Assembly: GCA_023245195.1 (NCBI GenBank)
Contig: JAHFKU010000003.1
Span: 1 to 43,914, forward strand
Length of the DNA stretch: 43,914 nucleotides
Reading direction: 5' to 3'
Origin: Candidatus Staskawiczbacteria bacterium
GTDB lineage: Bacteria; Patescibacteriota; Minisyncoccia; Minisyncoccales; Staskawiczbacteraceae
Positions 736-17,694 of this stretch are shown one piece after another (within the stretch, counting starts at the first letter, position 1; each line of letters begins with the position of its first letter). The notes below the pieces were generated by a model. That model was given only the letters and a program-made list of their open reading frames with translations, was not told where the DNA came from and ran no database searches. Made by a program: the position numbers and the translations under genes.

Positions 736-771
736 ATACCCTAAATTGTAAAGCTTTACAATTTAGGGTAT
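736..771. repeat. 36-bp perfect palindrome, copy 1 (ATACCCTAAATTGTAAAGCTTTACAATTTAGGGTAT)
   Basis: Read directly; same 36 bp recurs at 1328-1363. Confidence 0.97.
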
Positions 772-772
772 G

Positions 773-1303
773 TCATATTTCTTCTATTAAAAATACTTTT
801 ACAAATTTCTCTAGCGAGTAAAATTGGATTAATTTTTCTGTTTCCTCTGAAACATCATAAGGCGTTACCCAAATACTTTGTTGAAACATTTTATACTCAA
901 GACTATGCAAAATACTTCTTAGTAATTGTCGAGATTTTTTATATTTTTGAGGAATATCAAAAGTCAACATAATCCATTTTCCATCTTTTCGTTTTTTCTT
1001 TTCCCCTTTTGCAAAACTTGCCTTCAATGCCTTACCCAAACCATCTTTGGTCAAAACAATAGCTCTATTTCCCTTTAAATCTAAACTTCTTATAAGGCCT
1101 CTCTTTTTGAGAGAATATACTAATTTATTAAACTTTGCCTTATTTTTCTCGTCTTTGTATTTTTGAAAAATAGGATTTTTAGTTTGCCACAAAATTGCCC
1201 ACTTTGCAGCGCGGGGATTTAACATAAAAGCCGCAACATTTTCTGTTTCCATGAGAATACTATACATATCCCACAAGAATTCTTCGGTAACCCGTAATTT
1301 CAT
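773..1303 (-). CDS. PaaX-like protein: winged-helix N-terminus plus Cas2-like central domain
   Basis: KWIMLTFDIPQKYKKSRQLLRSILHSLEYKMFQQSIWVTPYDV resembles the PaaX central/Cas2-like ferredoxin fold; N-terminus resembles wHTH. Confidence 0.7.
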   Translation of the reverse strand: MKLRVTEEFLWDMYSILMETENVAAFMLNPRAAKWAILWQTKNPIFQKYKDEKNKAKFNKLVYSLKKRGLIRSLDLKGNRAIVLTKDGLGKALKASFAKGEKKKRKDGKWIMLTFDIPQKYKKSRQLLRSILHSLEYKMFQQSIWVTPYDVSEETEKLIQFYSLEKFVKVFLIEEI

Positions 1304-1323
1304 GATTACTTTTTCTTTAGTTT

Positions 1324-1367
1324 AATAATACCCTAAATTGTAAAGCTTTACAATTTAGGGTATTATT
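1324..1367. repeat. 44-bp perfect palindrome, copy 2, containing the same 36-bp palindrome (1328-1363)
   Basis: Read directly: AATAATACCCTAAATTGTAAAGCTTTACAATTTAGGGTATTATT. Confidence 0.97.
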
Positions 1368-3923: not shown

Positions 3924-4436
3924 TTAGAAAAAAGACGCATCGATAGTGATTTCTCTTTTGACTTCTTGCAAATGATTAAATGTAATCGAGATTAGATTGC
4001 TTCGCTTCGCTCGCAATGACGTTACGATTTTTTCCGGCCATTCAATAGCTACAATATTTTCTGGATTTGAAATAATTTCATCAAAATGCAAAAATTCCAC
4101 GTCTTTTTCATTTTCCAATCGATACAGATCAAAGTGGTAAAAATACTGGTAGAACAAATTACCAACGTTCGTAATTTGTTCTACTTTTTTATTTTTGGGA
4201 ATTTGGAATTTCTTCATCACAATGAAGGTTGGACTGTTAACCACCTCCTTGATCCCCAAACCTTTTGCAAAACCTTGTAAAAAGGTAGTTTTGCCGGCCC
4301 CCAAATCTCCCCGCAATGCCAAAACGACTGCCGTTTTTTGCGGCTTTGCGGCCAAAATTTCGCGCGCGAAATTTTGGCCCACCATCTGCGTCTCTTCAAA
4401 ACTATTTGTGTGGATTACTTTCATTGACTTTTGCAT
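3924..4436 (-). CDS. tsaE: tRNA threonylcarbamoyladenosine biosynthesis ATPase TsaE, carrying several palindromic inserts
   Basis: LRGDLGAGKTTFLQGFAKGLG, SPTFIVM, YHFDLYRL, IEWPE motifs. Confidence 0.9.
   Translation of the reverse strand: MQKSMKVIHTNSFEETQMVGQNFAREILAAKPQKTAVVLALRGDLGAGKTTFLQGFAKGLGIKEVVNSPTFIVMKKFQIPKNKKVEQITNVGNLFYQYFYHFDLYRLENEKDVEFLHFDEIISNPENIVAIEWPEKIVTSLRAKRSNLISITFNHLQEVKREITIDASFF
3994..4020. repeat. AGATTGC...GCAATGAC dispersed palindromic repeat, in frame within tsaE
   Basis: agattgcttcgcttcgctcgcaatgac; encodes SLRAKRSNL; 26/27 identical to 33091-33117. Confidence 0.92.
4149..4184. repeat. 36-nt near-perfect palindrome inside tsaE (GTAGAACAAATTACCAACGTTCGTAATTTGTTCTAC)
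   Basis: Read directly; one mismatched pair. Confidence 0.92.
4350..4379. repeat. 30-bp perfect palindrome inside tsaE (GGCCAAAATTTCGCGCGCGAAATTTTGGCC)
   Basis: Read directly; all 15 pairs match. Confidence 0.93.
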
Positions 4437-12421: not shown

Positions 12422-12469
12422 GTTCAACAAAAAAACCACAAACATATGTTTGTGGTTTTTTTGTTGAAC
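12422..12469. terminator. 48-bp perfectly palindromic bidirectional terminator between convergent genes
   Basis: GTTCAACAAAAAAACCACAAACATATGTTTGTGGTTTTTTTGTTGAAC. Confidence 0.85.
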
Positions 12470-17660: not shown

Positions 17661-17694
17661 ATCCCAAATTACTACGATCGTAGTAATTTGGGAT
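17661..17694. repeat. 34-bp perfect palindrome (ATCCCAAATTACTACGATCGTAGTAATTTGGGAT)
   Basis: Read directly. Confidence 0.96.

Follow-up and report, generated by a model that had tools for sequence, protein, structure and literature searches.

The stretch of DNA analysed here (43,914 nucleotides in full, hereafter the window) represents a single contig from a genome of 787 kb (G000) and harbours a short PaaX-like gene whose nearest named relatives are found in Candidatus Staskawiczbacteria and Parcubacteria records. The gene is bracketed by two exact copies of the 36-bp palindrome ATACCCTAAATTGTAAAGCTTTACAATTTAGGGTAT, located at 736-771 and 1328-1363, and both these palindromes and the PaaX/Cas2-like open reading frame are borne out by the sequence as they had been reported in a preliminary description (Table 1). 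Copy 2 ends 20 bp 5' of the ATG at 1303. The promoter-like match inside this upstream palindrome, which is directed at the PaaX-like gene, is repeated by symmetry on the other strand, where it points toward mutM. Originally, the unit had been placed between mutM and holA: the upstream neighbour is mutM according to its PF06831/PF01149 matches, while the name holA for the downstream neighbour is likely by inspection of the sequence; no Pfam model matched the fragment present in the window at 1e-5.

Table 1 Features of the PaaX-like locus and further palindromes in the window
Feature	Position	Strand	Description	Basis
PaaX-like/Cas2-fold open reading frame, 176 aa	773..1303	-	winged helix ~44-99, Cas2-like ferredoxin domain ~110-173, without PaaX_C	
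Downstream palindrome (copy 1)	736..771		perfect over 36 bp; separated from the stop codon by one base	sequence
Upstream palindrome (copy 2)	1324..1367		44-bp symmetry; 36-bp core 1328-1363 identical to copy 1	sequence
Promoter-like TTGTAA-N17-TATTAT	1325..1353	-	inside upstream palindrome, toward PaaX-like gene	sequence; inferred
tsaE gene with related in-frame palindrome	3924..4436	-	TsaE PF02367, E=1e-30	
Solo palindrome, AACGTT-centred	4149..4184		36 bp, one mispair, in frame inside tsaE	sequence
Solo palindrome, CGATCG-centred	17661..17694		34 bp, perfect, between convergent genes	sequence

The protein of the window matches PaaX_M (PF20803) with E=3.3e-17 and 62.8 bits against a cut-off of 24. 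A PaaX_C domain was not found in it using Pfam models, and the scores for both TIGR02277, the PaaX equivalog (16.9 bits, cut-off 264.55), and TIGR01573 for cas2 (20 bits, cut-off 24.5) lie below threshold. The family is generally prone to match Cas2 models weakly, and one distant relative (L130) scores above the Pfam Cas2 cut-off. For an AlphaFold2 model of the window protein (mean pLDDT 77, pTM 0.59), the best match in the PDB is E. coli PaaX (E=1.9e-3), followed by Cas2 proteins, with none at E<=0.001. The predicted winged-helix and Cas2-fold assignment is based on sequence models and structure together, and the earlier call of a Cas2/PaaX family member is upheld by the PaaX_M match and by the structural resemblance to E. 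coli PaaX and Cas2 proteins (E>0.001). Membership among the IS200/IS605-type (HUH Y1) transposases was not found, only PaaX_M/Cas2-type models scoring above noise. Asp116 of the FDIP motif, which we take to be the Cas2 active-site position after the first strand, is present in all 101 short forms and in five of eight long forms, and Arg125 and Ser143 are likewise present in 101 of 101 short forms. The aligned stretch of E. coli PaaX has no counterpart of Asp116. From these residues, catalytic activity may be predicted.

PaaX_M genes were detected in 122 of 380 Patescibacteria genomes, about a third of a sample holding one genome per species, with 1-11 genes each; the window's genome has three and the 13 genomes of its genus have 0-7 each. 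Flanks were read for 109 distinct PaaX_M genes, and the repeat was defined by the match between upstream and downstream region, since a strict palindrome pattern missed imperfect ones. A matching repeat occurs on both sides of 83 of the 109 genes versus 2 of 200 null pairs, in which upstream and downstream regions of different loci were combined, and with one genus over-represented in the sample these counts do not stand for independent events. The link between protein and palindrome that had been suggested holds. The window locus belongs to a family found throughout the Patescibacteria, whose units have just one gene each and are composed of a palindrome, a short PaaX/Cas2-fold gene and a second palindrome. 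Longer forms, two of which from Patescibacteria were shown to contain PaaX_C, mostly lack flanking repeats and are a natural control for the bracketing; absence of the palindrome beside homologous proteins, which had been named as an argument against a functional link, applies mainly to these longer, PaaX_C-bearing forms. No relative of the protein was present in the viral contigs or phages searched, on which ground phage carriage was rejected, and a plasmid search gave three weak matches, all to classical PaaX proteins.

Across loci, arm pairing and identity between upstream and downstream copy reach approximately ±18 bp from the dyad and are at background by ±22, with the palindrome signal peaking at positions 1-4 and 13-17 counted from the dyad. 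The repeat centre is an RCGR/YCGY dyad, mostly CGATCG, CGGCCG or AAGCTT. Each locus has its private palindrome sequence (half-site distance 0.16 within a locus vs 0.55 between loci), and copies of one locus agree even where the symmetry is broken: symmetry-breaking bases are common to both copies at 0.55, compared to 0.34 in the null (maximum 0.41 in 300 draws). Additionally, protein distances correlate with palindrome distances (Mantel r=0.25, p<=0.0005). Asymmetric flanking pairs comprise 26 direct and 13 inverted ones, so that simple terminal inverted repeats, as a full account, and likewise simple target-site duplication were rejected. The outer boxes, 13-17 bp away from the dyad, almost coincide in position with the half-sites recognised by E. 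coli PaaX (TGATTC-N27-GAATCA, PMC9493321). This suggests that the protein binds as a dimer in the manner of PaaX, its Cas2 domains lying over the central box, which is new.

A genome-wide search for the window's palindrome, as had been recommended, was carried out with its 34-bp core and returned five sites with at most three mismatches in 787 kb, compared to 0 for the reversed control. Besides the bracketing pair, these are an identical solo copy between ftsH and tRNA-Ile, an intergenic solo copy carrying two changes and still palindromic, and an in-frame copy in comEC. Another solo in the same genome, of which about 240 kb were scanned base by base, copies the palindrome beside the C32 PaaX gene, and the centre of the palindrome at 17661-17694 resembles those beside a PaaX gene of G003 (L034). 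In sampled stretches, five genomes with the gene yielded 14 solos of this class at a distance from it over 1.03 Mb, one of them looking like an ordinary terminator. Two genomes lacking the gene yielded 0 over 0.6 Mb, for which about 8 would be expected at the rate of the first group; assuming independent sites, the Poisson probability of zero is near 0.0003. Palindromes with other centres were present in all sampled genomes, irrespective of the gene. One perfect 48-bp AT-rich palindrome of the window, located between convergent genes at 12422-12469 and with a centre outside the PaaX class, is probably a bidirectional terminator.

In relative G005, the tsaE loop that contains a solo in the window has a CGGCCG palindrome of 38 bp, which is perfect; in others, the loop is short or different. 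Among the loci read for it (L188-L201, with L192 from G005), palindromes in this loop differ between G000, G005 and G009, while it is occupied by a TCATTGCGAG-type repeat in G004 and, in G002, by a long insert bearing repeats. Judging from these sequences, unrelated repeats have been inserted in frame with particular frequency in this one loop, which makes it a hotspot within the genus.

The mutM-holA junction is filled in G000, G002 and G012, while mutM and holA are directly adjacent in G004, G007 and G009. Hence, mutM-holA junctions without the unit, proposed as a sign of a mobile cassette, do exist, and the case named against mobility, in which relatives always carry the gene at this locus, does not apply; filled and unfilled relatives are too divergent to define unit ends or a target-site duplication. 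Five gene positions are syntenic between species (mutM-holA in G000, G002 and G012, plus four others) and paralogues within one genome of the genus share at most 68% protein identity, which does not support frequent gene transposition; any gene movement appears to be rare, because several loci are syntenic between species. Of the mobile-cassette hypothesis, the part concerning the palindromes is supported by the solos, the in-frame comEC and tsaE copies and the copied asymmetries, and presence or absence of the unit at mutM-holA is in its favour as well, whereas frequent jumping of the gene is not supported in view of the five shared positions.

At syntenic gene positions, palindromes differ between species and agree within each, so copies of one genome change together, which could result from selection by one changing protein or from copying between sites. 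Symmetry-breaking bases shared in either orientation indicate that copying contributes to this concerted change, at least in part. At the same position in comEC, the sequences of G000 and G004 differ and each is palindromic, with the former matching the mutM-holA type of its own genome and the latter that of G002; the palindrome is decayed in G012, other palindromes are present in G005 and G001, and several others have none. Length differences among the variants of comEC amount to 9-12 codons instead of a clean 12, and most relatives are about 50-60% identical, so that the comparison yielded no exact insertion junction in comEC or tsaE. Different palindromes are found in the same N-terminal loop of comEC in several species of the genus (L005 1500-1535, L065, L069, L072). 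Between ftsH and tRNA-Ile, a palindrome corresponding to the type of the genome's own gene is present in both G000 and G001, and no palindrome of this class was found at this junction in G008 and G010, which are without the gene.

Promoter-like scores of at least 9 were obtained for 30 of 71 upstream copies versus 11 of 73 downstream copies. The mean score of upstream copies is 8.64 compared to 7.92 for shuffled palindromes, and their -10 element is most often positioned at +15/+16 from the dyad, at the gene-proximal end. Autorepression would follow naturally from an upstream copy that overlaps the putative promoter. At no fewer than 17 loci, the bracketed gene has a convergent downstream neighbour and the downstream copy is still there, which makes it the end of a unit rather than the neighbour's operator; as a general role, an operator of the next gene was therefore rejected. 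Of the autoregulatory repressor suggested initially, with an operator preceding both itself and holA, the upstream half is supported by the promoter-like signals, while the next-gene half does not hold as a general role.

We read the observed architecture, its recurrence, the covariation and the dispersed copies tied to gene presence as an autoregulated REP/RAYT-like unit, in which a Cas2/PaaX-fold protein binds its palindrome and drives palindrome copying. The chances of this reading we judge to be about even, and we favour it over the alternative of an ordinary repressor governing a small regulon. Binding of the protein to its own palindrome of about 36 bp is well supported and most likely involves a dimer, whose winged helices would contact the outer boxes (13-17 bp away from the dyad) while the Cas2 folds, paired with each other, would lie over the central RCGR/YCGY box. 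With the upstream copy overlapping the gene's promoter, the protein would repress itself. The conserved Cas2 aspartate would probably serve to nick or cleave the palindrome or its possible hairpin, upon which palindromes could be copied between sites by repair or transposition-like steps. Such copying, which is indirectly supported, would keep the copies of one genome alike and now and then seed solo palindromes, as proposed for RAYT/REPs; binding geometry, repression, cleavage and transposition are what we infer for this unit. In a bolder version, put forward tentatively and at somewhat less than even chances, the protein would be a Cas1-free, winged-helix Cas2-fold nuclease specific for palindromes, which spreads copies of its cognate 36-bp palindrome around the genome and maintains their likeness through break-and-repair conversion. 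The REP/RAYT way of life would then have been invented a second time, independently, and the unit might illustrate the roles of Cas2-like proteins outside CRISPR.

Counted against the REP/RAYT-like reading are the five syntenic gene positions with no recent gene jump seen, the comEC and ftsH-tRNA palindromes, which match the lineage's own type and fit conserved operators too, and the promoter overlap, which is equally expected of a plain repressor. Alternatively, the protein could simply be an autorepressor of the PaaX type that controls a small regulon, with the palindromes being operators at its own promoter, the next gene and a few targets such as comEC and the ftsH-tRNA-Ile junction, and protein-palindrome co-evolution serving to avoid cross-talk between paralogues. 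Homology to PaaX, the operator-like spacing of the repeat boxes, the promoter within the upstream copy, the comEC and ftsH-tRNA positions with genome-specific palindromes in several species and the syntenic inheritance of gene positions are all in line with such a repressor. It accounts poorly, however, for a downstream copy that is present whatever the direction of the next gene, for solos between convergent genes and within coding regions, for asymmetries common to both copies in either orientation, and for an invariant Cas2 aspartate that E. coli PaaX lacks. Overall, we consider this repressor reading possible, though less likely than not.

That the palindromes are transcription terminators or neutral hairpins flanking the gene by chance would suit the downstream copies and several solos, which lie just past stop codons. 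Yet the gene-specific sequence is common to the upstream copy, which also contains promoter signals, the RCGR/YCGY centre is conserved, the palindrome covaries with the protein, and 0.6 Mb of genomes without the gene contained no such palindromes, making this explanation very unlikely. Even less probable is a degenerate remnant of CRISPR adaptation, composed of a Cas2 and two leftover repeats, as the Cas2-like fold and a repeat of CRISPR-like length might suggest. The best family is PaaX_M and not Cas2, a winged helix precedes the Cas2 domain and the repeats differ from locus to locus. The lack of Cas1 noted for the window extends to its whole genome, in which PF01867 was not found (matches occur in 3 of 13 genomes of the genus); with the Cas2 model below cut-off, the remnant was rejected.

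The nearest way of life to the REP/RAYT-like unit proposed here is that of REP/RAYT units themselves, while by homology it is closest to PaaX repressors. RAYTs, which are related to IS200/IS605 transposases, have inverted flanking REPs, often present in more than 100 copies per genome (PMC2817692). Shared with these REPtrons are a gene located between two cognate palindromes, gene-palindrome co-evolution and dispersed cognate palindromes that depend on the gene, whereas the protein here is of winged-helix/Cas2 fold, solos are few and flanking copies are direct or inverted depending on the locus. E. coli PaaX (PDB 8a39; PF20803/PF08223) likewise combines a winged helix with a Cas2-like domain and is autoregulated, as predicted here, at an inverted repeat of similar span (PMC9493321). 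Unlike E. coli PaaX, the present protein has no PaaX_C and an invariant Cas2 aspartate, and its site is a full palindrome with a conserved centre, found on both sides of the gene and as solos. With Cas2 and VapD nucleases, it has in common the ferredoxin-like fold, the aspartate after the first strand and a Q-x-S motif, but a winged helix is added, Cas1 is absent from the window's genome and private palindromes take the place of an array. Rickettsia palindromic elements, of about 150 bp, also reside in frame inside unrelated housekeeping genes (reviewed in PMC10969869), whereas the palindromes here measure 36 bp and the same palindrome brackets a gene unit.

In the open-access literature searched, no paper pairing PaaX with the candidate phyla radiation was found, none among the hits listed paired it with Patescibacteria, and nothing matching turned up on Cas2-like proteins with mobile palindromes. 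The locus has the look of a gene unit not described before, which regulates itself, spreads its repeat and has no tie to CRISPR. To our knowledge, the spreading of Rickettsia-type coding palindromes is unsolved, and the unit offers a candidate for the protein responsible when short palindromes enter genes in frame. A PaaX/Cas2-like family of about a third of the sampled Patescibacteria gains a defined partner on the DNA, for which there are now a consensus and a minimal unit as well as residues open to testing, and a non-CRISPR role is offered for a Cas2 fold. If nuclease-driven palindrome copying is true, this would be a new kind of machinery, and the many natural protein-palindrome pairs lend themselves to studying the evolution of DNA specificity.

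In several relatives, runs of N occur at or near palindrome sites, namely near the PaaX gene (L063, L009) and at the ftsH-tRNA junction (L256). Palindromes may thus break assemblies or be masked, and palindrome counts are probably low. In-frame stop codons within the PaaX_M frame are present in search matches from three single-contig genomes, at L104, L109 (G230), L113 (G036) and L145 (G072), which suggests decaying copies.
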